From assembly GCF_011300455.1 (NCBI RefSeq), contig NZ_CP049869.1, positions 558,001 to 622,000 on the forward strand: a stretch of DNA of 64,000 nucleotides, in the 5' to 3' direction. Each line of letters opens with the position of its first letter. The stretch's first letter is position 1. This document shows positions 36,792 to 59,538 of the stretch, piece by piece. A model generated the notes under the pieces. That model was not told the DNA's origin, searched no databases, and was given only the letters and a program-made list of their open reading frames with translations. This stretch comes from Sphingomonas piscis (GTDB lineage Bacteria; Pseudomonadota; Alphaproteobacteria; Sphingomonadales; Sphingomonadaceae). Position numbers and translations under genes: made by a program.

Positions 36792-36807
36792 CACAAAGGT
36801 AATCACG

Positions 36808-37649: not shown

Positions 37650-37679
37650 TCGGCCGCTTGACCCCGAGGAGGCAGATCA

Positions 37680-38648: not shown

Positions 38649-40084
38649 CTTCCCGCTTCGCCCGGTTCCGTCGGTTCCGCGATGGCAGCGTCGGCGCCGA
38701 GCGCACGGTACAGATCGACAGCGTTGCCCGCCCGTTGCCGCTGCACAGCCACCCGCCCCTGCTGCGCGTTGTAGAGTGTGCGCTGCGCGTCCAGCGTGGT
38801 GAAATAGGAATCGATCCCCCCGCGGTAGCGGGCGTTGACGAGCCGCAGCGTTTCGCTGGCGGCGGCAACATTAGCCTGAGTGGCGCGTAGCCGCTCCTCC
38901 ACCGTGCCGCGATCGGCAAGCGCATCGGCCACTTCGCGGAAGGCGGTCTGAATGGCGCGTTCGTAGGATGCGAGAGCGGCGTCGCGCTCGGCCTGGCTCA
39001 GGCGAACGTTTGCACGGCCGGCACCGGCGTTGAAGATGGTGTAGCCCGCCCCTGCCCCGGCGGACCAAGTAAAAGCGCCGCTGCTGAACAGCGAGGTCAA
39101 GCTTGAGCTGGCGAGTCCCAGCAGACCTGTTAGCGAGATCGTCGGGAACAAAGCCGCGCGCGCGGCGCCGATCTCCGCATTGGCGGCGTAAAGTGTAAAT
39201 TCCGCTTGCACGACGTCGGGTCGGCGCAGCAGGACGCGAGAGTCGAGGCCGGCGGGAAGCGGGGCGAAGGTGTCGCCGGCTCGTTCGATCGACTCCGGCA
39301 GAGTGCCGGGCGCGATAGGGGCACCGACCAGCAGTTGGATAAGGTTGGCGTCCTGAGCTCGGGCGGTGCGCTGCTCCGCTACGTCCTGCCGCGCCGTTTC
39401 CAGCACTTGCTGCGCCTGAAGCAGGTCGGTTGCCGGCGCGACTCCGCCCCGGAGTCGGGCTCGGGTCAGAGTGAGGCTCTGCTCGGCAGCGGCAGCCGTG
39501 TCCTCGGCAATGCGTAGCAGGCTCGAGTCCGCGGCATAGTCGAGCCATGCATCGGCGAGATCGCCGATCAACGTCAGTCTGACCGAACGCGCTGCTGCCT
39601 CGGTGGCCAGGAAGCGCTGCTGCTCGGCGCGGGTGAGTGAGGCCAAGCGCCCGAACAGGTCGATTTCGAAGGATGGCGAGACGCGCAGCGCGTAGCTTTG
39701 ACGGACGCCTCCGGATGAACCCACCGCACCTGCAGTGGAGCCGCCCTTGCTGACGCTCGTATCCGCGCTGCTGTCGACCCTTGGGAACTGATTAGCGCGG
39801 GTAATCGTCACCCGCTCCCGCGCGGCCGCGATGTTGGCGACGGCGATACGAATGTCCCTATTGTTGGCAAGCGCCTGCTGGATCAACGCCTGCAGACGGA
39901 CATCGCGGAAGACGTCGCGATAGGTGAAAACGGGCAGCGCGACTTCGTTCTGGCGCAGGTAAGCATCGCCGGCCGGCCAGGAGGCGGGCACGGGCAATGG
40001 CGTCGGCGTCAATTTGGGATCGAGCGACGTGCAGCCAGCCAGCAGCAGCAGCAGCAGCATCAACGCGGTCGATGTGCGCTTCAC
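38645..40084 (-). CDS. NodT-family outer-membrane efflux lipoprotein (TolC-like)
   Basis: The outer-membrane channel of a tripartite pump, 479 residues. The signal peptide has a run of leucines then LLLLLLAGCTSL with a lipobox cysteine. Two efflux repeats follow, each with NIAAARERVTITRANQFP-type and AYTIF/AGRANVRLSQAERDA-type helices (coiled-coil hairpins). The start is GTG, overlapping the pump stop by four bases (GTGA). The leucine run is encoded by a CAG/CTG-like triplet repeat near 40041-40060, which could slip. The gene converges with the esterase, overlapping four bases. Confidence 0.92.
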   Translation of the reverse strand: MKRTSTALMLLLLLLAGCTSLDPKLTPTPLPVPASWPAGDAYLRQNEVALPVFTYRDVFRDVRLQALIQQALANNRDIRIAVANIAAARERVTITRANQFPRVDSSADTSVSKGGSTAGAVGSSGGVRQSYALRVSPSFEIDLFGRLASLTRAEQQRFLATEAAARSVRLTLIGDLADAWLDYAADSSLLRIAEDTAAAAEQSLTLTRARLRGGVAPATDLLQAQQVLETARQDVAEQRTARAQDANLIQLLVGAPIAPGTLPESIERAGDTFAPLPAGLDSRVLLRRPDVVQAEFTLYAANAEIGAARAALFPTISLTGLLGLASSSLTSLFSSGAFTWSAGAGAGYTIFNAGAGRANVRLSQAERDAALASYERAIQTAFREVADALADRGTVEERLRATQANVAAASETLRLVNARYRGGIDSYFTTLDAQRTLYNAQQGRVAVQRQRAGNAVDLYRALGADAAIAEPTEPGEAGS

Positions 40085-43000
40085 GCTTCCGCCGCCTTTC
40101 GCCGCGTGCGGAAGCGTTCGCGCACAACGATCAGGCCGTCTTTGACGCCGCGGCGAACCAGCACGAAGAAGAGCGGGATGTAGAAGATCGCGAGAATGGT
40201 CGCGGTCAGCATCCCACCAATGACGGAGGTGCCGATCGCGATGCGGCTGTTGGCGCCAGCACCGGTGGAAAGGGCCAGCGGAAGCACGCCGAAGATGAAA
40301 GCGAAGCTGGTCATCAAGATCGGGCGAAGTCGGATCCGTGCTGCCTCGAGCGCCGCATCGAGGATCGGCTTGCCCTGCCGTTCGGCCTGCTCGGCGAACT
40401 CGATCATCAAAATCGCATTCTTGGCGGCCAGGCCCATGGTCGTGAGCAGGCCGATCTGCAGGTAGACGTCATTTTCCAGTCCGCGCAGCGTCACCGCGAA
40501 CACCGCGCCTACCAGCCCCAGCGGGATGACCAGCAGCACGGCCAACGGGATCGACCAGCTTTCGTAGAGTGCGGCAAGGCAGAGGAAGACGACGATCAGC
40601 GAAATGGCATAGAGCAAGGGCGCCTGGCCTGAAGACAGCCGCTCCTGGAAGGACTGGCCGGACCAGGCGACACTGGTCCCCGGCAGCTGTCCGGCAAGCC
40701 GCATCATCTCGTCCATCGCCTCACCCGAGCTGACGCCCGGCGCCGGCTGTCCTTGGAATTCGAACGCCGGCACGCCCTGGAAACGCGAAAGGCTGCTCGG
40801 CGCCGTCGACCAGCCGATCCGCGCAAAGGAAGAGAAAGGACTCATCTCCCCGGTAGAGGAACGGACGTACCATTGCGACAGGCTGGAAGGATCGGCCCGG
40901 TACGGAGCGTCGCCCTGAACGTAGACGCGCTTCACCCGCCCCTGGTCGATGAAGTCGTTGACGTAGCGTCCGCCCCAAGCCGTCGACAGGGTCGAGTTCA
41001 CGTCGGCCTGGTTGAGCCCGAAGGCGGTCAGCCGCTGCTGATCGACGTTGATCGCCAGGCTGGCGACGTCCGGAAGGTCGCTTAAACGAACGGAGGTCAG
41101 CTTGGAGTTGGCGTTGGCGAGCTGAAGCAGTTTTTCCCGAGCGGCAATGAAGTCGGCACGGCTGAGCCCGCTCCGGTTCTGCAGCTGCATGCTGAAGCCG
41201 TTGGACTGACCAAGGCCGCGGATGGCGCCGGGGACGAGGGCGAACACCTGCGCATCGCGGAAGCCGCGGAAGGCACCGGAGGCGCGCTCGACGATGGCGT
41301 CGGCGGTGTTCTCCTTGCCCGGCCGTTCGCTCCAGTCCTTGAGGTTGAGAAAGCCCTGCCCCGTGTTCTGGCCGGTCGCGCCGCCGCCCCGCCGCCGCCC
41401 GCCACGGTGAACAACGTCTGGATGTTGCCTGACTCATGCTCGGCGAAATAGCGCTCGATCTGCCGCTGCACCTCAAGCGTGCGCACCTGCGTCGCGCCGG
41501 CGGGCAAGCGGAACTGGATGCTTGCCGCGCCCTGATCCTCCGTCGGAAGGAAGCCGCTCGGCAGGCGAAGGAACAGGACGACGAGCAAAGCGACGATGGC
41601 GGCGTAGAGCCCCAGAAAGATCCATTTCCGGTCGATGACCTTGAGCGCTGCCGCCTGGTAGCGGTCGACGCCGCGATCGAAGATGCGGTTGAAGCCATTG
41701 CCGGCCCGGTGAACGAGCGCACCAAGCCTTGGCGCCTTGCGGTCGAGCCAGGTGGGCGTCGGCCCGTCTTCCGAATGGGGCTTCAGCAAGGTGGAGGTGA
41801 GCGCCGGGCTCAGCACCAGCGCGACGATCACCGACAGCACCATCGCCGAGACGATGGTGATCGAGAATTGCTTGTAGATGACGCCTGTGGACCCGCCGAA
41901 GAAGCTCATCGGCAGGAAGACCGCCGAGAGGACCAAAGCGATGGCGACGAGCGCCGTCTGGATCTCACCCATCGAGATGATCGTCGCCTCGCGCGCCGAC
42001 ATGCCGGGGTTCTCCGCCAGCAGACGCTCGACATTCTCCACCACCACGATGGCATCATCGACCAGCAGTCCGACCGCGAGGCTGAGTCCGAACAAGGTCA
42101 GCGTGTTGATCGTGAAGCCTGCGATGTAGAAAATGGCGAAGGTACCAAGCAAAACCACCGGAATGGCGATCGCCGGAACCAGCACTGCCCGCCAGCTTTG
42201 CAGGAAGACGAACATGACGATGATGACGAGGATCACCGCTTCGATCAGCGTCTTGACCACTTCTTCAACCGACAATTTGATGAAGGCGGTCGTGTCGTTG
42301 GCGTAGGTGTGCTGGATGCCCTCGGGGAAGCTGGCGGAAAGCTCCTGCACCCGCGCCTTCACCAATTCGGAGGTCTGGAGGGCGTCGGCACCGGGGGCGA
42401 GCGAGACGGCAATGCCGGCACCGGGATGGCCGTTGACGCGGGTCACGGCGTTGTAATTTTCCGAACCGAGCTCAACGCGGGCAACGTCGCCGAGCCGGAC
42501 GCTTGCGCCGCTCGGGTCGGTTTTCAGGATGATCGCGCGAAACTCTTCGGGTGTCCGAAGCTTGGACTGTGCGGTGACCGTGGCGTTGAGCATCTGCTCG
42601 GACGCTTGCGGAAGGCCGCCGACTTCGCCGGCCGCTACTTCGGTATTCTGGTTCTGGATGGCCGAGACCACGTCGCTGGGCATCAGCGACACGGCTGCCA
42701 AGCGCTGCGGCTGAAGCCAGATCCTCATGGCGTGCTGGGAGCCGAAGACGTTGATGTCGCCGACGCCCGGCACGCGCGACAAGGGGTCCTGGAGGTTGGA
42801 GGTCAAATAGTCGGACACGTCCATGTTGGTGCGGGTGTCGGTGGAATCGTACACCGCGACGATCATCAGGAAGTCGGGGTTCGACTTGGTGACGCGGATG
42901 CCCTGCTGCTGAACCTGTTGCGGCAAGCGGGCAATCGCCTGTTGCACCTGGTTCTGAACCTGCACCTGCGCTGTGTCCGGGTTGGTGCCTTTCTCAAACA

Positions 43001-43277
43001 CGACCGAGATGCTCACCGCGCCGCGCGAGCTGGACGAGGAGGAGAAGTAGAGCAGGCCGTCGATGCCGGTGAGCTGCTGCTCGAGGATCTGGGTAACGCT
43101 GTTCTCGACCGTCTCCGCCGAGGCGCCCGGGTAGCTGGCGCGAACGTTGACCTGCGGCGGTGCGACGTCTGGGTATTGCTCGATCGGCAAGCCCTGGATC
43201 GCGCCGATTCCCGCCAGCATGATGACGATGGCAATCACCCAGGCGAAGATCGGGCGATTGATGAAGACCTTGGACAC
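40081..43277 (-). pseudogene. RND (HAE1) efflux pump subunit with apparent frameshift
   Basis: The inner-membrane proton-driven pump is split over two frames. The N-terminal part (from GTG 43277) contains MSKVFINRPIFAWVIAIVIM, the periplasmic pore domain and GLSLAVGLLVDDAIVVVENV in helix 4. The C-terminal part has LLTTMGLAAKNAILMIEFAE and helices to the end. The frame changes in TVAGGGG at about 41383-41400. One extra G in the GGGG run (plus strand CCCC, 41387-41390) would give GGATGQNTGQGFLNLKDW and a normal protein of about 1065 residues. Sequencing error or recent mutation are both possible. Confidence 0.85.
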
Positions 43278-44705: not shown

Positions 44706-45719
44706 ATGCAGCAGTTTTCGCCCGTCCGGGAGTGGCACGACATCGACGTCGCCAAGTTTCGCAACGAGATCGCACCGCTTCGAGAGCCCGCAATCCTTCG
44801 CGGACTGGCCGCCTCCTGGCCCGCAGTGCAAGCGGCCGGGCAGTCGAACGAGGCCCTACGGGACTATCTGCTGCCGCTCGACAACGGCAAACCCACGCCC
44901 GCCTTTCTAGGGCCGCCCGAGATCAAGGGACGCTTCTGGTACCGCGAGGACATGCGCGGCTTCAATTATCAGCAAAGCCAGGCCGCCATCGGACAATTAC
45001 TGCAGGCCTTGGTTGCCGCGCAGGACGATCCGAACGCCCCGTCGCTCTATGCCGGCGCGGTTCCGGTTGCCGAGCACATTCCCGCCTTTGCCCGCGACAA
45101 TGACATCGACCTGCCCGGCACGGGCGCGGTTGCGCGGATGTGGATCGGCAATCGCGCCACCGTTTCCACCCACTTCGACCTGTCGGAGAATATCGCCGTC
45201 GTGGTTGCTGGCCACCGACGCTTCACCCTGTTCCCGCCCGAGCAGGTGCAGAACCTCTATGTCGGGCCGTTCGACTTCACCTTCGCCGGACCGCCGGTCA
45301 GCATGGCCAACCTGCGCGAGCCCGATCTAGGGCGCTATCCCAGGTTTGCGGAAGCCTTGAAGAACGCCCGCGTTGCAGAACTTGAACCAGGCGATGCCAT
45401 CTTCGTCCCCTACATGTGGTGGCACCATGTCGAGGCGCTGGATGCCGTCAACGTGCTTCTCAATTATTGGTGGGAGCTGACGGGCGAGACGTGGAAGGGC
45501 TCACCCTTCAAGGCGCTGATGCACGCCATCATGAGCATCCGCGACTTGCCCGAGCGCGAACGGTCGGTGTGGCGGGCCTGGTTCGATCATTATGTGTTCG
45601 GCGACGGTCATGCCGCAGTCGCCCACTTACCCCCACACGGACGCGGTGCGCTTGGCGACATGAGCCCGGAGATTGCGCGCGCGGTGAAAGCCTTCATCGT
45701 CGACGAGTTCAAGCGCTAG
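44706..45719 (+). CDS. JmjC/cupin-like (cupin_8) dioxygenase-like protein
   Basis: The 337-residue protein has the fold of JmjC-type Fe(II)/2-oxoglutarate enzymes: PAILRGLAASWPA at the N-terminus, then VSTHFDLSENIAVVVAGHRR with the HxD metal pair, and PYMWWHHVEALDAVNVLLNY with the distal histidine. These residues would bind iron, so protein hydroxylation is possible. Such genes often accompany tryptophan-halogenase-like genes in sphingomonad and Caulobacter TonB-receptor loci. It is divergent from the efflux operon and converges with the first halogenase with four bases between. Confidence 0.88.
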   Translation: MQQFSPVREWHDIDVAKFRNEIAPLREPAILRGLAASWPAVQAAGQSNEALRDYLLPLDNGKPTPAFLGPPEIKGRFWYREDMRGFNYQQSQAAIGQLLQALVAAQDDPNAPSLYAGAVPVAEHIPAFARDNDIDLPGTGAVARMWIGNRATVSTHFDLSENIAVVVAGHRRFTLFPPEQVQNLYVGPFDFTFAGPPVSMANLREPDLGRYPRFAEALKNARVAELEPGDAIFVPYMWWHHVEALDAVNVLLNYWWELTGETWKGSPFKALMHAIMSIRDLPERERSVWRAWFDHYVFGDGHAAVAHLPPHGRGALGDMSPEIARAVKAFIVDEFKR

Positions 45720-45723: not shown

Positions 45724-47247
45724 TTAGGGTAGCTCCGCACGGCAGAAGCGGTCGATGAATTGCTGATGCGTCGGCATCCGCTCGACGTTGGAGCTCATTG
45801 CTCGGGCAATGCGCGTCATTCGACTGTCGAGTTCCTCGTCCGGAAGGACGTCGGCGACCGGATGATGACGGGCGGGAACGATCCCTTGCCCATTCATGAC
45901 CGCAAGCCAGCTCGTTTCGGAAAATAGTTCGTTATCGTGGCGGTAGAGCCGACCATTCTCGCGAAAGATGGCGATCCGTTCCGCCAGCGTGTCCGGGATC
46001 GGCATTGTCCGGCAGTAGTTCCAGAAGGGCGTGTCGTCCCGATGGGTGGCCTTGTAGTGGAGGATGATGAAGTCGCGCACCTGCTCATATTCGAGCCGCG
46101 TGCGAGCGTTGAAATAGTCGATGTCGCGCTGATTGAAGAGCTTGTCGGGGAAGTTGGTCATCAGCCGCGCGACGCCCGACTGCACGAGGTGGATGGAGGT
46201 CGATTCCAGCGGCTCGAGGAAGCCTGACGCGAGGCCTAGCGACACGACATTCTTGATCCACGACTGGCGTCTCCGCCCGGCCTTGAAGCGGAGGAAATTG
46301 GGGTCGGAGATCGGCTCCCCGTCCAGATCCGCGTTGAGGCTTTCCAGCGCGTGGTCTTCGCCGATATAATCGCTGCAATAGACATGGCCGTTACCGGTCC
46401 GCGACTGCAGCGGAATGCGCCATTGCCAGCCGGCGGTCTTGGCTGTCGATCGCGTGTAGGGGACCGGCTCGGCAACCTTGCGACAGGCGCGGGCGACCGC
46501 CCGGTCGCATGGAAGGTAGGTGCTCCAATCCTCGAAGCCCGCGCCTAGCGTTTGTTCGATCAGCAGGCCGCGAAAACCCGAGCAGTCGATGAACAAATCG
46601 CCCGCGACCGCTTCCCCGCTCTCCAGGCGAACCGCGGCTACGTTGCCGCTTTCTCCGTCTTGGTCGACCCCGACAATTCGGCCTTCGACCCGCTCCACGC
46701 CGCGGCTTTCCGAAAGCCGGCGAAGGAATGCCGCGTACAGCGATGCGTCGAACTGGAAGGCGTAAGCAATGGTGCTGAGCGGCGAGTCCGGCCGGCTGAG
46801 GTCCGGACGCTGGAACTTGCCGGCGCGGGCCGCGAGGACGGCAATGCTGTAATCGTCGAGCGGACGGCCCCTGCCCTCTTGGTGCTGGCGCAACCAGAAG
46901 TGATGGAAGTGAAGCCCCTCCATGTCCTGTCCGTAGACGCCGAACGGGTGGATGTAGCGCTCGCCCAGCCCTCCCCAATTCACGAACTCAATACCAAGCT
47001 TGAAAGTGGCATTGGTGCGGCGGACGAAGTCGTCCTCGTCGATCCCGAGCAGCCGGTTGAAATAGACGATGTGGGGAATGGTCGCCTCGCCCACGCCGAC
47101 TGTTCCGATCGCTTCGGATTCGATCAGCCGGATGCGGACGTGACTGGACGGCAGCAGCTTGGACAAGGCCGCAGCCGCCATCCAGCCGGCAGTGCCGCCG
47201 CCGACGACGACGATGTCCTTGATGCGGAGATGGTCAGGCGTGCCCAC
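45724..47247 (-). CDS. flavin-dependent tryptophan-halogenase-like protein 1
   Basis: Flavin-dependent halogenases form hypohalous acid with FADH2 and pass it along a tunnel to a lysine that halogenates an aromatic ring. All key parts are present: FAD motif VVVGGGTAGWMAAA, GVGEATIPH, the lysine in NATFKLGIEFVNWG (aligned with Lys79 of PrnA), the WQWRIP motif and FLEPLESTSIHLV. The 507-residue length is normal. The GTG start lies three bases after the upstream stop, so it is the last of four coupled genes. The substrate is unknown. Confidence 0.9.
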   Translation of the reverse strand: MGTPDHLRIKDIVVVGGGTAGWMAAAALSKLLPSSHVRIRLIESEAIGTVGVGEATIPHIVYFNRLLGIDEDDFVRRTNATFKLGIEFVNWGGLGERYIHPFGVYGQDMEGLHFHHFWLRQHQEGRGRPLDDYSIAVLAARAGKFQRPDLSRPDSPLSTIAYAFQFDASLYAAFLRRLSESRGVERVEGRIVGVDQDGESGNVAAVRLESGEAVAGDLFIDCSGFRGLLIEQTLGAGFEDWSTYLPCDRAVARACRKVAEPVPYTRSTAKTAGWQWRIPLQSRTGNGHVYCSDYIGEDHALESLNADLDGEPISDPNFLRFKAGRRRQSWIKNVVSLGLASGFLEPLESTSIHLVQSGVARLMTNFPDKLFNQRDIDYFNARTRLEYEQVRDFIILHYKATHRDDTPFWNYCRTMPIPDTLAERIAIFRENGRLYRHDNELFSETSWLAVMNGQGIVPARHHPVADVLPDEELDSRMTRIARAMSSNVERMPTHQQFIDRFCRAELP

Positions 47248-47250
47248 GGT

Positions 47251-48753
47251 TCAGCCGGCCGGGCAATATCGCGCGATGAACTGCGCATGGGTCGGCAGCT
47301 TGGCGGTGACGGCCTCCATCGCCTGGCGCATAGACTCTATACTTTCGTTGACCTGATCCGCTGGCAGGCCCGCGATGATCGGGTTGTAGGCACGAGGCAG
47401 AATGTTCTGGCCGATCATAACTGCGACCCAGCTTGGGCGGGTGAACAATTCCTCCTCATACCGGAAGACGCGCGCGGCCTGTTCGAACAATTGCATCTTG
47501 TAGGTCAGCGAGTCCGGCACCTTCATATTGCGGCAGTAGGTCCAAAACGGCGTGTCGTCCCGCTCGGTCGCCTTGTAATGGAGGATGATGAAGTCGCGCA
47601 CCTGCTCATATTCTGTGCGCATGTGGCGGTTGTACTCGTCCCGAATGACGTTCGCCAGCGAGGCATCCGGGAACAGTGAGATGAACCTGCTGATCCCTTC
47701 CTGGATCAGGTAGATCGACGTGGACTCCAGCGGCTCCAGGAAGCCCGACGCCAGTCCGATGGCAATGCAGTTCTTCGACCACATCTGCTCCCGAACTCCG
47801 GTTTTGAAGCGGATCGGACGCGGGTCGGCAAGTGACGCACCCTCAAGGCCGTCCAGCAGCATCTGCGTCGCTTCGTCCTGCCCGAGATATTCGCTGCAGA
47901 AGATGTGGCCGTTGCCGACGCGCTTCTGTGTGGGGATGCGCCATTGCCAGCCGGCAGTCTTCGCCGTCGACTGAGTATAAGCGCTTAAGGGTCCGTGGTG
48001 CTCACTCGGTACGGCAAGCGCCGTGTCGCACGGCAGCCAGTGGCTCCAGTCGGTCAGGGGAACGCCCAGCGCTTGTTCGATCAGCAGGCCCCGGAAACCG
48101 GTACAGTCGAAGAAGAAGTCGCCTTCCACTTCACGGTTATTGTCGAGAAGAAGTCCAGTGATGGCGCCGCTCTCGCCGTGCTGGCGAACCTCCCGGATCA
48201 CCCCTTCAACCCGCTTGACGCCGCGCTCTTCGGCATAGTCGCGCAGGAAACGGGCGTAGAGCGTCGCGTCGAAATGGTAAGCGTAGCGAACGTGCGATAG
48301 CAATGAGGACGGGTTGGGATCAGGAAGGACGAACTTGTTCGCCTTGGCCATGACCGAGCAGAGGCTGTAATCCTCGATCGGGTGCGAGTTGCCGGCCGCC
48401 CGTCCGTGAAGCCAATATTGGTGGAAGTCGAAGCCACGCATGTCGACGCCATGCTGGCCGAACGGGTGGATGTATTGGTGACCCTTGCGGCTCCAGTCGA
48501 TAAACCGGATTCCCAGCTTAAAGGTCGCATGGGTCGCCTTCATGAATTCGGCTTCGGGGATGCCGAGGATCGCGTTGAAGTTGATGATGTCGGGGATGGT
48601 CGCCTCGCCCACCCCGATCGTTCCGATCTGGTCGCTTTCGACCAGAGTGATAGAAACTTCTTTAGGGTCGAGCAGGCTGGAAAGCGCGGCAGCCGTCATC
48701 CACCCGGCCGAGCCGCCGCCGACGATGACGATGTTCCGAAGCATCGGCTGCAT
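47251..48753 (-). CDS. flavin-dependent tryptophan-halogenase-like protein 2
   Basis: The 500-residue protein keeps the full motif set: IVIVGGGSAGWMTAAAL, GVGEATIPDIINFN, lysine in HATFKLGIRFIDWS, WQWRIP in KTAGWQWRIPTQK, and FLEPLESTSIYLI. The ATG at 48753 lies two bases after the stop of the third gene (TGACCATG). An open frame upstream to 49065 only shadows that gene. It is paralogous to genes 1 and 4, so the array arose by duplication. Where the canonical family has EST-G at the chloride site, these three have EST-S, which may affect halide choice. Confidence 0.9.
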   Translation of the reverse strand: MQPMLRNIVIVGGGSAGWMTAAALSSLLDPKEVSITLVESDQIGTIGVGEATIPDIINFNAILGIPEAEFMKATHATFKLGIRFIDWSRKGHQYIHPFGQHGVDMRGFDFHQYWLHGRAAGNSHPIEDYSLCSVMAKANKFVLPDPNPSSLLSHVRYAYHFDATLYARFLRDYAEERGVKRVEGVIREVRQHGESGAITGLLLDNNREVEGDFFFDCTGFRGLLIEQALGVPLTDWSHWLPCDTALAVPSEHHGPLSAYTQSTAKTAGWQWRIPTQKRVGNGHIFCSEYLGQDEATQMLLDGLEGASLADPRPIRFKTGVREQMWSKNCIAIGLASGFLEPLESTSIYLIQEGISRFISLFPDASLANVIRDEYNRHMRTEYEQVRDFIILHYKATERDDTPFWTYCRNMKVPDSLTYKMQLFEQAARVFRYEEELFTRPSWVAVMIGQNILPRAYNPIIAGLPADQVNESIESMRQAMEAVTAKLPTHAQFIARYCPAG

Positions 48754-48755
48754 GG

Positions 48756-50240
48756 TCAGGGCTTGTTCTTCTGGAGGTAGAGCTTGAGCTGGTCGACGTA
48801 GACTGCGTGCGGCGGCAGGCTGCCGGCGACCTTTTCGACTTCCGCCTTCATCGCCGCAAGAAAGCCGCGGATCCGGTCGGCCGGTGCCCGGTCGGCCAGG
48901 CGATCGTGGCGGCGGGGCCGGCGCCCCATGCCATAGTGAAGAACGGTCCAGTCTTCCGGATGGAACGGCTCGAGATCGTAGGACACGAGCAGGCCGCGTT
49001 GCTCGAACATGTTGATCTTGCGCACCAGCTTGTCGTTTACCGGCTGCCCGCGCGCGACCTGCCAATAGGTCCCCTCGGGAAGACCCTCGGTCTGGAACAT
49101 GGCCTGCGTGAAGAGGCCGGCATGCTCATAATCCTCTCGGGCGCGGCGGCAATATTCGCGGCGTTCCACGGCCATGCGGCCCGACAGGGGAATGAGCGAG
49201 ACGAGGCGCTCAACATCCCGTTCAAGCAGCAGGATTGGTGCAATGGTCAGCGGCTCGGCAACGTGCGCAGCCTGCCCCACACCGACACAGTTCCCAACCC
49301 ACGCCTCCGTGCGGCTTCCAAGCTCCGCTTCGCATGTCCGTTCGGGCCCGTCCGGGTGATCAGCTTTCGCCTCGTCACGAGAAGAGGCGTCGAAAACGTT
49401 GAGGCGCACCCGCTTACCTTGCAGCGGTGTATCGGACCGCCACCCGTAGGCAGTCGGCGCGACGGTCCGAAGAGGCGCGCCGAGCTGCGCCGAGGTCGAG
49501 GTGCTCAGGGCCGCGCCAATAGTTCGGCCGGTCGAAACGGGCGCTTGGAGCCGAGAGAGAAGACGCGCCTCCGGGCCAGTGCAATCGACGAACAATCCCC
49601 CCTCGATATTCTCGCCGCCGACGAGCGAAACGGAGACAATCTCATCTCCTTCGACCTGCAGATCGACGCCGTCGGTTCTTAGGATACGAACCCGACCGTT
49701 TGGAACGGCCTCCTCGAACATCCGCCCATAGGTCGACGGGTCGATCTGGTAGCCATATTCGGCGTTGGACAGCAGGCTTTGGGAGGCGGCCGCGGATTCC
49801 TGCGGGGGATGGGCGAACAGGCCCTTTCGGGCAGCAATCGCAGAGACTAGGAACGGCTCTAGGCTCGTCATCCGCTCACGGGCGAGGAACTGATGGAACA
49901 GAATGCCGTCGATCACCGGGAAAGGCAGCTGATAACATTGAATCCACGACCGCTCGCCCGCGGCCCACTTCTCATACTTCGTGCCCCACGAGAAAGCGGT
50001 ATCGCTCCCTGTGATTAGAGCGGGCTCCTCGATCCCGGCACGACGATTGAACTCGTACGCCGTCGGGCCGGCCGCGTTTCCATAAAGGATGTCGCTATCG
50101 GGCGCGTTGCCCACCTGAACCCAGCTGATCTGCAACGCCGACGGCAGCTGGCGCGCCAGCGTCGCTACCGTCATTGCCGCGGCGAGACCGCTGCCCACGA
50201 CAACGAGATGGTAGAGCGGGGCGTCAGACGGCCGTGGCAT
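48756..50240 (-). CDS. degenerate tryptophan-halogenase-like protein 3
   Basis: This 494-residue paralogue keeps the overall layout (HLVVVGSGLAAAMTVATLAR FAD loop, VDCTGPEARLL, a late SLIPLSGR helix) but the glycine motif is altered to GSGLAAA. The GVGEATIP and FKLG lysine blocks are absent, WxWxIP is replaced by GWRSDTPLQ, and the EST motif by AEPLTIAP. Halogenation is therefore not expected. It may be a structural partner or have another flavin role. GGGA lies six bases before the ATG, which overlaps the fourth gene by 17 bases. Confidence 0.8.
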   Translation of the reverse strand: MPRPSDAPLYHLVVVGSGLAAAMTVATLARQLPSALQISWVQVGNAPDSDILYGNAAGPTAYEFNRRAGIEEPALITGSDTAFSWGTKYEKWAAGERSWIQCYQLPFPVIDGILFHQFLARERMTSLEPFLVSAIAARKGLFAHPPQESAAASQSLLSNAEYGYQIDPSTYGRMFEEAVPNGRVRILRTDGVDLQVEGDEIVSVSLVGGENIEGGLFVDCTGPEARLLSRLQAPVSTGRTIGAALSTSTSAQLGAPLRTVAPTAYGWRSDTPLQGKRVRLNVFDASSRDEAKADHPDGPERTCEAELGSRTEAWVGNCVGVGQAAHVAEPLTIAPILLLERDVERLVSLIPLSGRMAVERREYCRRAREDYEHAGLFTQAMFQTEGLPEGTYWQVARGQPVNDKLVRKINMFEQRGLLVSYDLEPFHPEDWTVLHYGMGRRPRRHDRLADRAPADRIRGFLAAMKAEVEKVAGSLPPHAVYVDQLKLYLQKNKP

Positions 50241-51786
50241 CGACATTCCCAAGAGTGGCGGCCACACCCGACTTGCGGATAAAGTCCTCGTGCGTCGGCG
50301 TCGCTGCCACTGCAGCGGCTACGTTGGCGCGAATGGCGGCGGCATTCCTTGCGATTACGTCGGTCGGCAGTGCGTCTGCCCGGCGGTCATATCCGCGCGG
50401 CATGAGATTCTGCCCCATCATCACGGCGATCCAGCTTGGCGGCAGGAACAGGCCATGTTCGTAGGCGATGATAGTGCCCCGCTCCGTCCAGGCGCTGATC
50501 TTCTCCTGCAGGCTGTCCGGCAGTGTCATGCTCCGGAAATGGCGCCAAAAGTCGCTGTCGTCGCGCTGGGTTGCGACATAATGAAGCAGCAGGAAGTCGC
50601 GAACTCGCTCAAAATGCAGCTCCATTCGGCGGTTATATTCGTCGATGTCGTCCTGGTTGAAGCTCTTGTCCGGGAAGATCTGGATCAGCTCTGTGATGCC
50701 GTCCTGGATCAGGTGGATCGAGGTCGACTCCAACGGCTCCAGGAAGCCGCCCGAAAGCCCGACAGCAACCACATTCTTGTTCCACAGCAGCTTGCGGCGC
50801 CCGGTGGTGAAGCGAAGTCGGTTGGGACCTTTCAGCGCCGGCGCGTCGAGATTGTCGAGCAGAACCCGTTCCGCCTCTTCATCAGAGATGAAGTCGCTGC
50901 AATAGACGTGGCCGTTGCCGACCCGATGCTGAAGCGGGATCCGCCATTGCCAACCGCTCTGGCGAGCGGTGGCGCGGGTGAACGGTCCGATCGCTCCCCG
51001 GCTTTCCGTGGGAAGGGCGATGGCTCTGTTGCAGGGAAGCCACCGGCTCCAATCGTCATAGCCCGTCTGCAACGCCTGCTCGATCAATAGGCCGCGGAAG
51101 CCGGAGCAATCGATGAACAGGTCCGCTTCGATCGCCTCGCCGCTCTCAAGCGTCACCGATTGGACAAAGCCAGTGTTGGGATCGAGCGCCGTGCTCGCGA
51201 TCTTGCCTTCGGTGCGCAGGATGCCTCTCTGTTCGGAGAAGCGGCGCAGGAACTTGGCGTAGAGCGAGGCATCGAACTGATAGGCGTAGCCGAAGGTGGA
51301 CTCCACCGCCGCGGGGTCTTTGGCTGGGTAACGAAAGCGATAATGCTCCGCGGCGCTGACCCCGTAGGAATAGTCGTCGAGACGCCCGGCCCCGTTCACA
51401 CCTTCGCTCCTCAACTTGAGCCAATAATGGTAGAAGGGAACACCCTCGATCGCCGGACCGTAATCGCCGAACGGGTGAATGTAGCGATCGCCGATCTTGC
51501 CCCAGTCGCAAAATTCGATGCCGAGCTTGAACGTCGCTTCGGTGGTCTGCATCAATTCGCGTTCGGAGATGCCCAGCGAATTGTTGAAGGCGCGGATGTG
51601 CGGCAACGTCGCCTCGCCGACGCCGACGGTTCCGATTTCCTCCGACTCCACCAGCCGGATGGACACGGGCAATCCCTGCAATTTGCTGCACAATGCTGCA
51701 GCCGTCATCCAGCCGGCGGTTCCGCCCCCGACGATGCAGATGGACTCGATCGGTCCCTGTTTGTCTGTGCCCTGTACGGCCACCAT
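50224..51786 (-). CDS. flavin-dependent tryptophan-halogenase-like protein 4
   Basis: First gene of the four-gene run, 520 residues. ICIVGGGTAGWM (residues 16-27), GVGEATLPHIRAFN, lysine in EATFKLGIEFCDWG, SGWQWRIPLQHRV and FLEPLESTSIHLIQ are all intact, so enzyme chemistry is plausible. The ATG has GGGAG seven bases upstream. The next three genes are all coupled by overlaps or two-to-three-base gaps. The promoter must lie in the 51787-52051 gap, shared with the divergent TonB-dependent receptor, which suggests joint regulation. Confidence 0.9.
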   Translation of the reverse strand: MVAVQGTDKQGPIESICIVGGGTAGWMTAAALCSKLQGLPVSIRLVESEEIGTVGVGEATLPHIRAFNNSLGISERELMQTTEATFKLGIEFCDWGKIGDRYIHPFGDYGPAIEGVPFYHYWLKLRSEGVNGAGRLDDYSYGVSAAEHYRFRYPAKDPAAVESTFGYAYQFDASLYAKFLRRFSEQRGILRTEGKIASTALDPNTGFVQSVTLESGEAIEADLFIDCSGFRGLLIEQALQTGYDDWSRWLPCNRAIALPTESRGAIGPFTRATARQSGWQWRIPLQHRVGNGHVYCSDFISDEEAERVLLDNLDAPALKGPNRLRFTTGRRKLLWNKNVVAVGLSGGFLEPLESTSIHLIQDGITELIQIFPDKSFNQDDIDEYNRRMELHFERVRDFLLLHYVATQRDDSDFWRHFRSMTLPDSLQEKISAWTERGTIIAYEHGLFLPPSWIAVMMGQNLMPRGYDRRADALPTDVIARNAAAIRANVAAAVAATPTHEDFIRKSGVAATLGNVDATAV

Positions 51787-52051
51787 CACCTCTCCCGGAA
51801 TGGCCAACTATCACGATCCGGCCCTTGGGCAACATGCGAGACTACGTGCGCAGGTCCACTGTGTGATGCGTGAAAGTCACATCTACTTTCCGTTTAATCC
51901 ATATCGCAAAAGGCCCGTTGCCCGACGGACATCGCATATATAGGCTCAATTCTGAGTTGTCTGACTATTAGAGTCGCGCCCTGTCATGGGACCGAAGCGG
52001 CCGCAGCTGACAACGTGGATAGAACCTATGTTCAGGGGAGGGATTGCCGAA

Positions 52052-55000
52052 ATGAATCAAGACTCGAATTGGGCCCGTCGCTGGTCGGTTCGCGGGTGTT
52101 GCTTGCAACGTCCGCGCTGCCGTTCGCAGTGGCGCCGAGCATTGCCCATGCGCAGGACACGACGACGGCCGATGCGGCGCAGTCGGACGGAACCGCGCCG
52201 GAAGCGCCGACCGGCGCACCGGACTCGAGCGCTACCGATGACGACAATGCGACTGCCGGCGACAACAGCGGCGCTATCGTCGTTACCGGTTTCCGCCGCG
52301 CGCTTGAAACCGCCAAGAACATCAAGCGCAACTCGGACACCTTCGTCGACTCCATCACGGCGTCGGACGTTGCAACGCTGCCCGATCTTTCGGTCGCCGA
52401 GGCACTGGGCCGTATCCCAGGTCTGACCGTGTCTCGCTTCCCGACCGGTGGCGCCAGCCCCGACTTCCCTTCGCCGGAAGGCCGAGGCAACCTCATCCGC
52501 GGTCTTGGTTACACCCGCTCCGAGTTCAACGGCCGTGACGCGTTCAGCGCCAACGGTGGCCGTGCTCTCGACTGGTCGTCCATTCCGCCGGAACTCGTCG
52601 GCGCCGTCGACGTGTTCAAGAACCAGACCGCCGACCTGATCGAAGGCGGCATTGGCGGCACCATCAACCTGCGGACGCTCGAACCGTTCGACCGCAAGGG
52701 CCGAGTGATTGCTATTGCGGTCGACGGCACCTATTCCGACCTTCGCAAGAAGTGGGCTCCTTCGGGCAGCATCACCCTCGGCGATCGCTGGCAGACCGGC
52801 GCGGGCGAGTTCGGCCTGATGGCCTCCTACTCGCGCTCCAAGCTTGATTCGCGCATTCACGGTTGGCAGCAGAGCGCTCCCACCCCGCGTGTCCTGGTTG
52901 GTGGCAATCTCCCCTCGACGGGCTTCACCGGCGCCGGGCGTATCAACGAGTTTGCGGGTGTCGATCCGAGCCAGATCATCGGTGCGACCACCGGCTTCCA
53001 AATGCGCACCAACGACGTCGACCGTGACCGCACCAGCTATTATGGCGCGGCTCAGTGGAAGAACGACCGGATCAAGGCGACGCTGAAGTACGTCAACGTC
53101 AGGAACGATATCGACAGCGTCGAGCGCACCTACGAGTGGTGGCCGGACCACGATCCGGGAGCGACCATGTCGGTCAGCAATCTGGTCGTCCGCCCCTGGT
53201 CGACGGAAGGCACGGCCCTTTGCAACGGCGCCGGCGGCTTCCCATCCAACCCGGGTGACTGCGAAACCCTGATCCCGATCCAGGGCGGCCTGATGGAATC
53301 CGGTCTTGTGTCGAACACCAACGACAGCTGGACCGGCGTCTACGGCAATGCCATCGGCTCGCTCGGCATCGGCAAGCAGGAGCGGACCAAGACTCGCGAC
53401 CTCAGCGCCAATGTCCAGTGGGACGTGACGGACCGTATGACCGTCAGCCTCGACGCTCACCGCACCCGGTCGAGTGCCAAGTTCATGGAGCTTTGGGGCG
53501 GTCTCAACAGCTGGGCCAATCACCAGATCGATCACGATCTCGACAATCCGACGATCGCGTTCACGATCGACCCGCGCAATCAATTCAACTCGGGCAATAC
53601 ACGTTATCCGGGCGATGACGCCGGCACACCAATTCCGCATCCTACCAGCCTTGCTGATCTCAACGGCGCCAACTGGCAGTTTGCGGCCGATCGCTGGCAG
53701 GTCGGCACGGGCAAGCTGTACGCTGTCCGCGGAGACGTGAACTACGACCTGTCCGGCGGCGACGGTGCGACTTCCTGGTTCAAGGACGTCAAGTTCGGTG
53801 CTCGCTACGCTCGTCGCAGCCAGCGGAACGCCGAAATGGGCCTGAACTGGGGCGCAATCGCTCCGGCGTGGGCCGGCGGTTACGGCATCGTCGGCACGTT
53901 CCAAAATCCGGAACAGGCTGCAGAAGGGATCGATTTCTCGAACTTCTTCCGCGGCGGCGTCGTCCAGGGTGACAATACGGTGTTCCCGTTCGTCAACGAG
54001 GACCTGCTGACCAACTACAGCGCGTTCCGGCAATTTCTGCTGAATGAGCCGCAGATTGGTACCAACCACCTTTGGGTTCCGCGCGGTTCGGACGATGGGT
54101 CGCGGTTCGGTTCGCCGAACTTCAACCCGCAGGACATCTCGGACATCACCGAGAAGACGAAGAACCTCTATGCCCGTTTCGACTTCGGCAACGAATTCGA
54201 CAATGGCATGTCGCTCGACGGCAATATTGGTATTCGTTACTCGAAGACCGAGTTGGCTTCGACCGGCTTCCGCGCCTATCGACCGCTGAATCCCGACACG
54301 GAGCAGCCCGAGTTTGCCGCCGACGGCGTGACTCGTCTGAGAACGCCGGACGCGGAAGACCGGGACGATCTGGTCGACTTCGTGCCTGAAGCTGCAATCT
54401 ATGCGGCGCAGGCTCCGCTCGCGACCGACTTCAAGTCCAGCGACACGAAGTGGTTGCCCTCGTTCAACCTCAAGTGGAATCTCAATCGTGAGATGCTGTT
54501 CCGCGTTGGTGTGAGCAAGGGCCTTAGCCGGCCCAACGTGCAGGATCTCCGCGGATCGCAGGAATATGTCGTTACGGCGAGCCGCGAGAACTATGCTCCG
54601 ATAACGGATGAGAACGATCCGTTGTTCGGTGTCGATCGCGGTGCTGCGAATATTACCGTCAATGAAATCCGTGTCAGCCGTGGTAATCCGCAGCTGAAGC
54701 CGACGACGGCGTGGAACTACGACCTGTCATACGAATATTACTTCAAGAACGGCTATGTTTCGGCAGCAGCCTTCCTGAAGAAAATCCGTAACGTCCAGGT
54801 CAACGGCGAGCTGTCGCTCGGCACCGACACGATTGCGGGACAGGAAGTTCCGGTGATCTACAGCGGTCCGATCAACCAGTCGAAGGCGACGGTGAAGGGC
54901 TTCGAGCTCGCTTACCAGCAGACCTACGACTTCCTGCCGGGCTTCTTCGGTCATCTGGGCTTGCAGGCCAACTACACGATGATCCTGGCGAAATCGACGC

Positions 55001-55419
55001 CGCCGGCCAACACCGGCGACTCCGACGGCGACGGCATTCCTGACGAAGGTCAGACCGGTGTCTACCGCTTCGGCGTTGATGATATGCTCGGCCAGTCCAA
55101 GCACATCGCCAACGTTGTCGGCTTCTACCAGGACGACAAGTGGGAGGCGCGTCTCGCCTACAACTGGCGCTCGAAGTATCTGACGACCTACCGCGACTAT
55201 GTGACGGGTTTCCCGGTCTACAACTCGGCCTCGGGCAACCTGGACGCGTCGCTCAAGTATCAGATCATCCAGCCGCTCCAGGTGCGTGCGTCCATCGCCA
55301 ACATCCTGGACACGAAGAGCAAGGCTCGGGTTCAGATCGACCAGAACGGCACAATGTATGATCGCTTCAGCTTCCTGAACGATCGCCGCATTGTGATTGG
55401 CCTACTCGCTCAGTTCTAA
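52052..55419 (+). CDS. TonB-dependent receptor beside the halogenase array (frameshift near start)
   Basis: A large outer-membrane receptor of about 1120 residues: TonB-box GAIVVTGFRRALETAK, plug with TLPDLSVAEALGRIPGLTVS and EGGIGGTINLRTLEPFD, and a barrel ending RRIVIGLLAQF. From ATG 52052 the N-terminus reads MNQDSNWARRWSVRG, a good basic signal start. The hydrophobic core LLATSALPFAVAPSIAHAQ lies in the next frame. One extra G in the GGG run at 52094-52096 would join them. Without it only GTG or TTG starts with a poor signal remain. A strong terminator follows. The ligand is unknown, perhaps a plant polymer fragment. Confidence 0.88.
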
Positions 55420-56194: not shown

Positions 56195-57508
56195 TCAGCA
56201 GCCCAGTCGTTCAAGCATCGAGGCGATCAGCGTCCTGACGGCAGACTGGCTGGCCAGCCCGCCGCGGACCAGGCACCGGTCCACGAGAACACGTCGGAAA
56301 GCCGCATAGAGGCCGGGCTCCGGAGGGGCCGGAATCGACCAGAATGAGTCGAGGTGCCCCTGGTGGGTAAGCCCCGGAATGTCGTAGATTGCTTCGCCAA
56401 TGGCGCACACAGGACGATCGTGCTGAAGAGCAAGCGTCGCCGAGGTGCTGTTGACACAAACCATTCCTTTCGACAGCCGCGCCATCGTGTCCAGATCGCC
56501 TCCGTCAACGTAGTACAGGCGTCCGGTCAGGCCCAGCCTGTCGGCCTGAGAGGCGAAGAACCGCCGCCAATTGAAGAAGCTGCTGTCGAGCGGATGAGCC
56601 TTGATCAACAATTTGAGGTCGGCCGGAGCGTTCGCGGCAAAGCTTTCGACCACATATTTGGCCGCGCTTTGCATATTCGGGAAAGACGAATGCGCCTTGA
56701 TCTGGAAGTCGTCCGACAATTGCAGAGGAAGCAGGAAGAAGGGTTTGTCAGCCAGATCCGCGAGCGTCTTCTCCGCTGCAGCGGCACGCCTCTTGTTCGT
56801 CGCCAAACGCCATAGCCAGCCCACCCCTTCCTTGAGGATCGGCGTCGCCCGGTGGGAGTGGTAATGCGGGTAACGGAGGCGACCGGTAAAAACGTGGTGA
56901 TAATACCAATAGGAATCACGGGCGCGGCGGCGGAAGCTTGCGGTGACGGGCGGATTGCCGGGCTCGGCGGGTAGCTCCTGCGCCTGCGCCACGAACCAGT
57001 CTTTGTCGCGCGGCAGCGTGGAACGTGCGTTCACCCCGTCCCGCTCAAGCGTCATCCAGTTCGGCCGCAAATAGCCTTCTTCGAGCACGTGGATTCGGAC
57101 GCCGCGCGACGCTGCGATTCCGTGCGCCGTCACGTGGTAGGGACGGCAATCGCCGAATAGCAGGAGGTCCGTGATCTCCTGTTCGCGGATAAAGCGGTCG
57201 AGGAACACCGCCCAGTCGGAGAAGCGACCCGTGAAATTTACCGCACCCTTGGGCCAGTCATAGCGGTCGCCGCCGCTAAGATTGATACGGTGAACGGCGA
57301 TACCGCGCTTGATCATCGCGTCGCCAAGCTGGCGGAACAGACAACCAGGTGGGCCTTGAAGAAACAGGAACGACCGTGTCGCAGGCCGGAGCTCGGACGG
57401 CGGAGGAGCAGCTTGTGCACTCCTCGCAACGGCCCGCTGCCGGTCGATTGCCGGAGGTTGGACGCGAGTCGCTGTCTCCGGAGACAAATGAGAACGTCGC
57501 GACGCCAT
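56195..57508 (-). CDS. kpsS: KpsS-like capsule beta-Kdo transferase
   Basis: KpsS adds the first Kdo to phosphatidylglycerol to build the capsule anchor in the cytoplasm. The 437-residue protein has the family blocks FLFLQGPPGCLFRQLGDAMI, LLLFGDCRPYHVTAHGIAA, RIHVLEEGYLRPNWMTLERD, then LLPLQLSDDFQIKAHSSFPN and a late CVNSTSATLALQHDRPVCAI. The last block is the sugar-nucleotide site of the KpsC/KpsS fold. It follows rfbD by 18 bases at the end of the capsule operon. The N-terminal 45 residues are Ser/Pro/Ala-rich, so the start could lie further downstream. Confidence 0.88.
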   Translation of the reverse strand: MASRRSHLSPETATRVQPPAIDRQRAVARSAQAAPPPSELRPATRSFLFLQGPPGCLFRQLGDAMIKRGIAVHRINLSGGDRYDWPKGAVNFTGRFSDWAVFLDRFIREQEITDLLLFGDCRPYHVTAHGIAASRGVRIHVLEEGYLRPNWMTLERDGVNARSTLPRDKDWFVAQAQELPAEPGNPPVTASFRRRARDSYWYYHHVFTGRLRYPHYHSHRATPILKEGVGWLWRLATNKRRAAAAEKTLADLADKPFFLLPLQLSDDFQIKAHSSFPNMQSAAKYVVESFAANAPADLKLLIKAHPLDSSFFNWRRFFASQADRLGLTGRLYYVDGGDLDTMARLSKGMVCVNSTSATLALQHDRPVCAIGEAIYDIPGLTHQGHLDSFWSIPAPPEPGLYAAFRRVLVDRCLVRGGLASQSAVRTLIASMLERLGC

Positions 57509-57526
57509 GGTTAAGGATTAGCGATA

Positions 57527-58468
57527 TCAGCCCTGCGAGGATAGCCGAGACGTTTCCGTCTGCTGTTCAGGGCTTGGCTCCCGATCGCCGGGCAACAAAC
57601 GCTCGACCACGTCACTAAGCGAAGTTCGCCAGGACGGGAGGCTAACCTGATGCGCCGACTGCAGCTTCGTACAGTCGAGCCGAGAGTTGGCGGGGCGCTT
57701 CGCTGCTGTCGGGAAGTCCGAGCTGCCAATCCGCACCACCCGCGCCGTGGGGCCACCGCGAGCGGCGGAAGTTGCGAAGATGCCCTCGGCAAACTCGGCC
57801 CAATTTGTACTCTCTGAGCCCGCCATGTGGAATATTCCGCGCAAGTTCTCGTCACGATCGGCAGCGAGGTTGGCCACAACCTTGAGGATGCCATCGGCGA
57901 TGTCGAGCGCGCTCGTCGGATTGCCCAGCTGGTCCGAAACGACGCGAAGCTCCTCCCGATCGGTTCCGAGCCGAAGCATGGTCTTCACGAAGTTCGCACC
58001 AAAAGGGCTGTACACCCAGGCAGTCCGGAGGATCGCGGCATTGTCGTGCTCGGCGAGCACCTGCCGCTCGCCGTCGAGTTTCGATCGGCCGTAGACGCTT
58101 GTGGGTCCAACGGGATCGTTTTCCCGAAATGCGGCCGGTTTCAGGCCATCGAACACGTAATCGGTCGAGGTATGGACCAGCGGCACCGCGAGCCTTGCAG
58201 CTGCGTAGGCCACCGACCCGGCTCCGTCAGCATTGATCGCAAAGGCCGCAGCCTCATCCGCTTCCGCTTTATCGACCGCAGTATAAGCGGCGGCGTTGAC
58301 CACGGCGTCCGGCCTGGCGCGTTCAACGGCGGCCACGATTTCACTGCGGCCGCTCGCGAGATCGAGGTGAGGCCGACCCAGGAGAATGATCTCGTAGCCG
58401 CGCTCGGAGCCGCGTTCGAGAAGGGAGCGGGCGACCTGACCCTGCGTACCGGTAACGAGAATCCGCAT
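57527..58468 (-). CDS. rfbD: dTDP-4-dehydrorhamnose reductase
   Basis: Last step of dTDP-L-rhamnose synthesis, NADPH-dependent, cytoplasmic. The ATG at 58468 gives [20 protein letters not shown] with the glycine-rich nucleotide motif. DAVVNAAAYTAVDKAEADEA and the catalytic TDYVFDGLKP and YGRSKLDGE (YxxxK) follow. The 313-residue length is slightly more than the usual 290-300, with a polar tail ending QTETSRLSSQG. The ATG overlaps the TGA of rfbB by one base (TGATG), so translation is coupled. The frame upstream to 58552 was rejected. Confidence 0.93.
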   Translation of the reverse strand: MRILVTGTQGQVARSLLERGSERGYEIILLGRPHLDLASGRSEIVAAVERARPDAVVNAAAYTAVDKAEADEAAAFAINADGAGSVAYAAARLAVPLVHTSTDYVFDGLKPAAFRENDPVGPTSVYGRSKLDGERQVLAEHDNAAILRTAWVYSPFGANFVKTMLRLGTDREELRVVSDQLGNPTSALDIADGILKVVANLAADRDENLRGIFHMAGSESTNWAEFAEGIFATSAARGGPTARVVRIGSSDFPTAAKRPANSRLDCTKLQSAHQVSLPSWRTSLSDVVERLLPGDREPSPEQQTETSRLSSQG

Positions 58469-59538
58469 CAGCCCTTCGATTCTCCCGAGGACCCACCGAT
58501 CAGCCCCAAGCGCTCGCCTTTGTAGGCGTTGCGCAGCGGTTTCCACCACCATTCATTGTCGAGATACCAAGCAACCGTCTTCTCGATTCCGGTTTCGAAC
58601 GTTTCTTCCGCCCGCCAGCCGAGTTCCTGCTCCAGCTTAGTAGCATCGATCGCGTAGCGCGCATCGTGACCCGGCCGATCGGTCACGAACTCGATCAAGT
58701 CGCGATAATGCGAGTTCGCGGGCCGCAACTCCTCCAGGACATCACAGATGCGGTTCACGACATCTATGTTGCGCCGCTCGTTTCGGCCGCCGACGTTATA
58801 GGTCCCTCCAAGCCTACCGCGCTCCGCGATGACGTCGAGCGCGCGCGCATGGTCCTCCACGAAGAGCCAGTCGCGCACATTCTCGCCCTTTCCGTAGACA
58901 GGCAGCGGCTCGCGATGGAGGGCGTTGAGGATGGTGAGCGGGATCAGCTTTTCGGGAAAGTGGAACGGCCCGTAGTTGTTGGAGCAGTTCGAAACCACCA
59001 CCGGAAGGCCGTAGGTCCGCTGCCACGCCTTGGCGAGGTGATCTGACGATGCCTTTGACGCGGAGTATGGAGAGCTGGGGTCGTAGGGCGTTTCTTCCGT
59101 GAACAGCCCCTCGGCACCGAGAGAGCCATATACCTCGTCGGTGGAGACGTGGAGAAAGCGGAATGCACTGCTCCTCGGCTCCCCAAGCCCGGCCCAATAG
59201 CCTCTCGCCGCTTCCAGCAAGGTGAAGGTGCCGATGACGTTGGTCTGGACGAAGTCGGCCGCGCCGGTAATCGATCGGTCGACATGGCTTTCGGCCGCCA
59301 AGTGCATGACCCGGTCAGGCTGGAAATCAGCGAAAGCGCCAGTCATGGCGGCCCGGTCGCAGATGTCCGCCTTCAGGAAGCGGTAATTTGACTTTCCCTC
59401 AACCGCGGTCAGGGACGCCAAATTGCCGGCGTACGTCAGAGCGTCGATGTTCAGGACGTCATAGCCTTTGTCGAGCACGAGATGCCTGACCAAGGCGGAA
59501 CCGATGAAACCCGCACCCCCAGTAACGATTACGCGCAT
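58468..59538 (-). CDS. rfbB: dTDP-glucose 4,6-dehydratase
   Basis: It converts dTDP-glucose to dTDP-4-keto-6-deoxyglucose, step two of dTDP-rhamnose synthesis. The extended SDR features are complete: [20 protein letters not shown] (GGAGFIG NAD motif), [12 protein letters not shown], the catalytic region [14 protein letters not shown] (T-D-E), and [16 protein letters not shown] (YxxxK). [18 protein letters not shown] and [15 protein letters not shown] are also typical. The start at 59538 gives 356 residues, the usual size. It overlaps rfbD by one base and is separated from manC by 139 bases with no gene. Confidence 0.95.

Follow-up and report, generated by a model that had tools for sequence, protein, structure and literature searches.

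What does a halogenase-like gene that has lost its catalytic motifs do inside a run of intact halogenase genes? The question is raised by a 64,000-nucleotide stretch of the Sphingomonas piscis genome (contig NZ_CP049869.1, positions 558,001 to 622,000; hereafter the window), in which the sequence and a Pfam profile search place four PF04820 genes head-to-tail on the minus strand at 45724–51786. We named them in the order of transcription, TH4 (gene 4), pTH (gene 3), TH2 (gene 2) and TH1 (gene 1), with start codons picked by inspection of the sequence (Table 1). On comparative sequence evidence, the pseudo-halogenase pTH appears to serve TH4 as an obligate partner without catalysis of its own, probably as one subunit of a heterodimer, a reading to which we give a probability of roughly 0.6. 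Papers cited by PMC number were drawn on in excerpt, and statements on them hold for those excerpts; loci and genomes carry our own L and G numbers.

In agreement with the first-pass annotation of the window, all four genes matched PF04820 (gene 1, 658 bits; gene 2, 638; gene 3, 185.6; gene 4, 634; cut-off 21), and the GGG[TS]AGW, GVGEAT, FKLG, GWQWRIP and PLESTS motifs were all read in each of genes 1, 2 and 4, the products of which are predicted to be active halogenases. These three are 48–53% identical to one another, and gene 3 is 28–31% identical to each of them. Gene 3 had been described as having lost or altered every motif; all five are indeed changed, to GSGLAAA, LYGNAAGP, FSWG, GWRSDTP and AEPLTIAP, although some residues are kept: the dinucleotide fold still has its GxGxxA, GVG its final Gly and WxWxIP its first Trp, and the EPL that precedes the glutamate is also there. 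The catalytic Lys is replaced by Ser, the Glu by Thr and the halide-loop Ser by Pro, the second Trp of WxWxIP is gone, and in the FAD loop, GSGLAA, the third Gly of GxGxxG is replaced. The gene is full length, as had been proposed: its match covers profile positions 2–457 of 458, and an AlphaFold2 model (predicted local distance difference test score, 91) has the predicted fold of a flavin-dependent halogenase (FDH). No further Pfam domain was found in gene 3 except a weak FAD_oxidored match under the cut-off. The junctions are tight and fit the proposed coupling of gene 3 to its neighbours, with the likely gene 3 ATG inside the end of gene 4, a gap of 2 nt between genes 3 and 2 and one of 3 nt between genes 2 and 1. 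The longest frame of gene 3 starts at 50267 (48756–50267), and an ATG at 50240 or 50246 is likelier.

Gene 3 has 322 matches in a large protein database, and the 120 listed are 45–100% identical to it, its own entry included. Among these 120, none has Lys in the catalytic Lys column (K83 in the brominase BrvH; Ser in gene 3) or Glu in the column of PLES(T) (Thr in gene 3), all lack the second Trp of WxWxIP, and the replacements at the catalytic columns are themselves conserved. Because all 119 other homologues among the matches listed lack the Lys/Glu pair as well, gene 3 is no decaying copy. The idea of a lone degenerate copy of this genome was rejected in view of the wide family seen in the protein database and in a scan of genome contigs. 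The halide site of known enzymes consists of two backbone NH groups, the catalytic relevance of which is left open (PMC7336383); in our alignment, 98% of 49 pTHs, gene 3 included, have proline as its second residue. Given the lost Lys/Glu pair, this proline and the inactivity of the BrvH K83A mutant (PMC5945002), halogenation by pTH along the known route is very unlikely.

The best 80 matches of the contig scan gave 79 loci, on which the locus counts for the gene 3 kind, here class I, rest. At least 48 loci are class I (L062–L108, L116; 32–55% identity), and the remaining 31 match at 24–29%. The class-I hosts include Sphingomonas, Asticcacaulis, Hyphomonadaceae, Maricaulis, Hellea, Parvularcula, Qipengyuania, several Alteromonadales and one Lysobacteraceae metagenome-assembled genome, so that both Alpha- and Gammaproteobacteria are represented. 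With frames below 380 aa left out of the motif reading, the catalytic pair of the 48 class-I pTHs reads ST in 35, CT in 5, SS in 4, AT in 2 and TT in 2, and KE (the Lys/Glu pair) in none; their neighbours have KE throughout (TH4, 46/46; TH2, 46/46; TH1, 42/42). Each class-I pTH gene is a single open frame, although in one case a contig end interrupts it. Most loci are arranged as TH4-pTH-TH2(-TH1) next to a TonB receptor; L074 lacks TH2, TH1 lies beyond the receptor in L102 and L103, and contig ends truncate L077 and L094. As to syntenic conservation of gene 3, a check suggested at the outset, its kind is found in at least 48 loci, typically in a fixed slot after TH4. The distribution within the order is patchy, since the gene 3 profile scored above 500 bits in only 3 of 147 genomes of an order sample, the window genome among them, and horizontal transfer may have contributed. 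Among the matches listed for other genomes of the genus (36 in one search; 70 in another, which covered 71 genomes, own included), none exceeded 31% identity to gene 3; plasmid records gave 40 matches, all below 60% identity, the 15 listed being 25–28% identical. In related runs this slot is taken by pseudo-halogenases that diverge further, some of them internally deleted (~345 aa). Short forms of 337–407 aa occur in L114, L121, L125, L129, L131, L135, L136, L198–L201 and L048, and in the five run through Pfam (L114, L121, L129, L131, L136) the middle of the PF04820 domain is missing.

The slot is tied to one lineage of active enzymes. Active genes that immediately precede a pTH group with TH4 in a single clade (support 98 and 97; 89 in a larger FastTree). 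In a genus census (PF04820 search of 23 genomes with score tiers; Lys/Glu columns read in 90 frames), eight frames lacked the Lys and all eight were second in a tandem run (Fisher p = 1.2e-10 for Lys-less genes at second place). One of the eight (G004) retains the Glu, and seven are pTHs of another kind than gene 3; a ninth run, consisting of two genes, contains no Lys-less frame, and the 59 single genes comprise 58 with KE and one partial gene with the Lys only. In this census a pTH directly followed 8/8 TH4-clade genes versus 0/73 other intact genes, and among the genes fetched from the order sample (L193–L197, L048), counted within the runs only, it followed 5/5 and 0/12, respectively. Across all loci of the larger tree set, the counts were 83/83 and 0/242; the census and the order sample weigh more, because many of the loci were fetched through their pTH. 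The larger set is limited to the 325 of 420 frames in which K and E are both present, and 12 of the 95 motif-poor frames, which do not lie behind a TH4-clade gene, were dropped from the count: six pieces of the frame-broken contig L051, five frames at or near contig ends (two in L094, the others in L103, L077 and L185) and a 348-aa frame behind the pTH in L133. Outside it are L001–L038, L055–L061, L128, L134 and L186–L192, most of them duplicate places of other loci, but the excluded L010–L038 and L055–L057 are matches from some further genomes. L051 itself (G009:C1:115000-132000) is a halogenase run in many short frames beside a receptor, perhaps from a frame-error-rich assembly. Of the 83 partners, two retain the Lys (KN) and three the Glu (RE), the rest having neither or a gap at one position.

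This one-to-one pairing makes the gene 4 product the most likely partner of pTH. The partner role proposed in the first-pass annotation is well supported by conservation, purifying selection, the fixed slot and the pairing, but genes 1, 2 and 4 are probably not equal candidates for it. The window genome (G000; 2.7 Mb, nine PF04820 genes) has a second receptor-linked TH4 and pTH without TH2 and TH1 (G000:749531-752595; L039:3532-6596), in which the pTH (G000:749531-751078) has Ser/His for the catalytic pair. In G096, G097 and G098 the cassette is split: TH4-pTH lies on one strand, the remaining two halogenases converge on it from the opposite strand together with the cupin gene, and the receptor is divergent at the far end of this second group. 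The strict adjacency to TH4 and not to the receptor, kept even where the pair is split off, speaks against pTH being a regulator or a flavin or substrate sink that would not bind a halogenase directly, for example a sensor of an imported ligand. Class I does retain the fold and part of the dinucleotide site, and pTH belongs to a receptor-linked run, as such a role would have it; gene 3 has no extra Pfam domain save the sub-cut-off FAD_oxidored match, and we consider this role improbable. A still less probable role is that of a chaperone for the folding or stability of TH4 with no part in the finished enzyme. GroEL-GroES or pGro7 was used in expressing BrvH and Xcc4156 (PMC5945002, PMC7336383), and TH4 and pTH would be translated together, but the 73 other intact halogenases of the genus census have no pTH behind them.

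The pTH genes are under purifying selection. Ratios of nonsynonymous to synonymous substitution rates (dN/dS, Nei-Gojobori) were calculated for 19 locus pairs, and in all 17 in which the pTH value was computable it was 0.12–0.36, below 1 throughout. In every case it equalled or exceeded that of TH4 of the same pair (1.0–5.2 times wherever both ratios could be computed, 17 pairs in all); for the 14 pairs whose dS was below 0.7, pTH gave 0.15–0.32 versus 0.04–0.18 for TH4. Because the ratios are below 1 yet not lower than those of TH4, pTH is constrained, less so than its active sisters. Neutral decay, which the first-pass annotation had set against its partner proposal, is not seen in these ratios. 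A decaying duplicate surviving in the operon by chance could show this excess over TH4 and the lost catalytic residues, but the selection test contradicts it, as do the 48 class-I genes, each one open frame, across two proteobacterial classes and the slot kept in 83/83 cases, and we regard it as extremely improbable.

The 137 active genes of class-I loci share 120 columns with a conservation of 95% or more; of these, 29 are kept in the 49 pTHs, 11 are switched, that is, another residue is conserved in pTHs, and 80 are relaxed. Conserved replacements could also mean that pTH is a neofunctionalised flavoenzyme, with a pocket rebuilt around Ser/Thr in place of Lys/Glu for hydroxylation, oxidation or the like on the same substrate. 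The new class-I motifs FSWGT and EPL[TS]PAP are conserved nearly as well as the old ones, and GxGLA and the Asp and Gly of DCTG are kept. However, the other pTHs in the slot do not share the class-I residues as a set, six short pTHs lack the whole WxWxIP region, and the acidic residue at the position of TH2 E44, which we take to be the usual FAD-ribose ligand, is not conserved in pTH. We therefore hold this explanation to be unlikely, if the least so of the alternatives, one precedent being QhpG, a structural relative of FDHs that hydroxylates peptidyl Trp (PMC7876137).

The pTHs appear to be an old, separate lineage of pseudo-halogenases. In a 42-row tree, to which more pTH kinds were added and from which many rows of an earlier 107-row tree and all short forms were left out, one branch, with a support of 100, has all of the 22 full-length pTHs chosen on the same side. 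Several independent origins, at which the 107-row tree hinted, were set aside on the basis of the 42-row tree, in which long-branch attraction may play a part.

If pTH is an obligate partner of TH4, the two would be made by coupled translation and fill both places of the family crystal dimer, which all Trp-halogenase crystals show (PMC7336383). TH4 would carry out the FADH2/O2/halide chemistry, and pTH would be a structural or substrate-docking, possibly allosteric, subunit, its own pocket being free to change or vanish. Open active sites in BrvH (PMC5945002) and Xcc4156 (PMC7336383) leave room for a large substrate, which pTH may dock or gate. The same receptor-linked cassette would also supply TH2 and TH1 as additional halogenases. 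The series of pTHs from full length to ~345 aa indicates which halogenase parts would be dispensable for the partner role.

Several observations weigh against the partner interpretation. Size-exclusion chromatography and dynamic light scattering of Xcc4156 were taken as a sign of a possible monomer in solution, and the same authors were unsure whether the crystal halide site matters for catalysis (PMC7336383). In evolutionary distances, the covariation of pTH with TH2 (partial r = 0.39) is no weaker than that with TH4 (0.31; TH1, 0.22), and there is none with the receptor (−0.24), so that the sequences do not mark TH4 as the one contact partner. The conserved new class-I residues S93, T341, W108 and Q110 could build a new active site, and two Caulobacter pTHs still have the Lys and three others the Glu. 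The 83/83 count is partly selected, as most loci were fetched via the pTH or its patterns, and the 107-row tree had class-II pTHs in three places with weak deep forks between them.

More tentatively, TH4-type receptor-linked halogenases may be hetero-oligomers in which the active subunit receives a large substrate from a dedicated, singly originated pTH; this substrate might be a polypeptide such as the precursor of the TonB receptor. Assays of a TH4-type enzyme by itself would then show little or no activity, with partner and substrate missing. The Trp content of the 45 cassette receptors (median 1.74%, with five Trp residues invariant in all) does not decide whether the receptor is the substrate, because the comparison set was poorly chosen (frames for 14 of 25 receptors, several truncated). 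QhpG provides a precedent for Trp within a protein as the substrate of an FDH-like flavoprotein (PMC7876137).

Halogenases near receptors and dead paralogues as partners are known ideas. The nearest characterised relatives of the run are the orphan PF04820 brominases BrvH (Brevundimonas BAL3, PDB 6frl) and Xcc4156 (6y1w), in contrast to which gene 3 has neither the catalytic Lys/Glu pair nor the NH of the halide site. BrvH scores almost alike against the TH4, TH2 and TH1 groups (519.5, 522.7 and 517.5 bits). PrnA, RebH, Thal and PyrH have the same PF04820 fold, with Lys/Glu motifs as in TH1, TH2 and TH4, and are 18–21% identical to gene 3 in fold alignments; they sit in natural-product clusters, and to our knowledge no pseudo-halogenase partner is known for them. 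In trypanosomes, AdoMetDC and its prozyme are a case of a dead paralogue retained for a working heteromer, of another fold and chemistry; the dead subunit here comes in several kinds, one of ~345 aa. The maturases QhpG, LodB and GoxB (roles of the latter two taken from NCBIfam names) are FDH-like flavoproteins and distant NCBIfam relatives, all far below cut-off; gene 3 matches none of them, and they have other partners and chemistry than this cassette. BrvH and Xcc4156 were each produced and assayed alone, and what BrvH and the Xanthomonas enzymes act on in nature is stated not to be known (PMC5945002, PMC7336383). In excerpts of the open-access literature, PMC8269204, PMC11337851 and PMC11340318 included and subscription papers and preprints being outside this scope, neither a pseudo-halogenase partner nor halogenase runs beside TonB receptors were described. 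Nor did that literature describe a pseudo-halogenase that recurs as the apparently obligate companion of a single halogenase lineage. PF04820 genes are abundant in these bacteria and many adjoin TonB receptors; if one cassette gene is a required dead partner, single-protein assays would miss the real enzyme, and the database name 'tryptophan 7-halogenase' borne by some pTHs would be wrong on chemistry. The TH4 and pTH pair is a concrete target for co-expression.

A relative of the window receptor is present in 44 of 48 class-I loci (of the other four, three are contigs of ~6 kb or less and one is cut close to TH4). Its side and strand differ among loci, with a divergent receptor adjoining TH4 in most of them, not all; in the window, the two start codons are ~267 nt apart. 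The neighbouring gene first described as JmjC-like encodes a Cupin_8 protein instead, with a JmjC_2 score of 21.1 bits, just below the cut-off of 22. It is convergent on gene 1 and hence outside the halogenase transcript, and the window cupin is matched in 7 of 48 class-I loci, some of them cut short. The cupin gene is thus no more than a loose companion.

Table 1. Halogenase-like genes of the window and adjoining features
Feature	Position	Strand	Basis
Gene 4, TH4; first in run; predicted flavin-dependent halogenase, PF04820 motifs intact	50224..51786	-	ATG at 51786 read from DNA
Gene 3, pTH; class I pseudo-halogenase	48756..50240	-	profile, motifs, AlphaFold2 model
Gene 2, TH2; third in run; predicted halogenase, motifs intact	47251..48753	-	profile, motifs
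Gene 1, TH1; fourth in run; predicted halogenase, motifs intact	45724..47247	-	profile, motifs
Divergent intergenic region between TH4 and receptor; putative shared promoter region	51787..52053	.	sequence
TonB-dependent receptor, TIGR01782 (TonB-Xanth-Caul) type	52054..55419	+	TIGR01782, 558 bits (cut-off 310)
Cupin_8 protein with one HxD motif; converges on gene 1	44706..45719	+	PF13621, 214 bits

A role in glycan uptake is plausible, as receptors accompany the loci and GH3 (16 loci), LacI (9) and FGGY kinase (6) genes recur nearby (each family named from one representative). Several loci lie within sugar-utilisation neighbourhoods. DnaB recurs as well (9 loci), which looks like plain synteny.

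Another cassette, comprising a TonB receptor, a divergent KE-intact halogenase (~212–231 bits), a Cupin_8 gene and an ordinary halogenase, was seen in L112, L126, L127, L132 and L137; hosts of the receptor, divergent halogenase and Cupin_8 cassette are Massilia, Rubrivivax and Aquisalinus. In freshwater Sphingomonas, a tryptophan halogenase gene, RS06730, appears with a count of 1 in an excerpted table of colony-morphology genes (PMC11340318). Elsewhere in the window, 25077–38648 resembles a glycan-utilisation region, with GH115, major facilitator superfamily transporters, a DUF5597/GH35-42 protein, a TonB receptor, a GntR-FCD regulator and an alpha/beta hydrolase. At 40081–43277, a putative resistance-nodulation-division (RND) efflux inner-membrane protein, judged by eye, is spread over two overlapping frames (43277–41097 and 41247–40081), and this RND-like gene looks frame-broken or misread. 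Capsule and GDP-sugar biosynthesis genes occupy 56195–62777, with Capsule_synth twice, RmlD and GDP-mannose dehydratase types and a ManC type.

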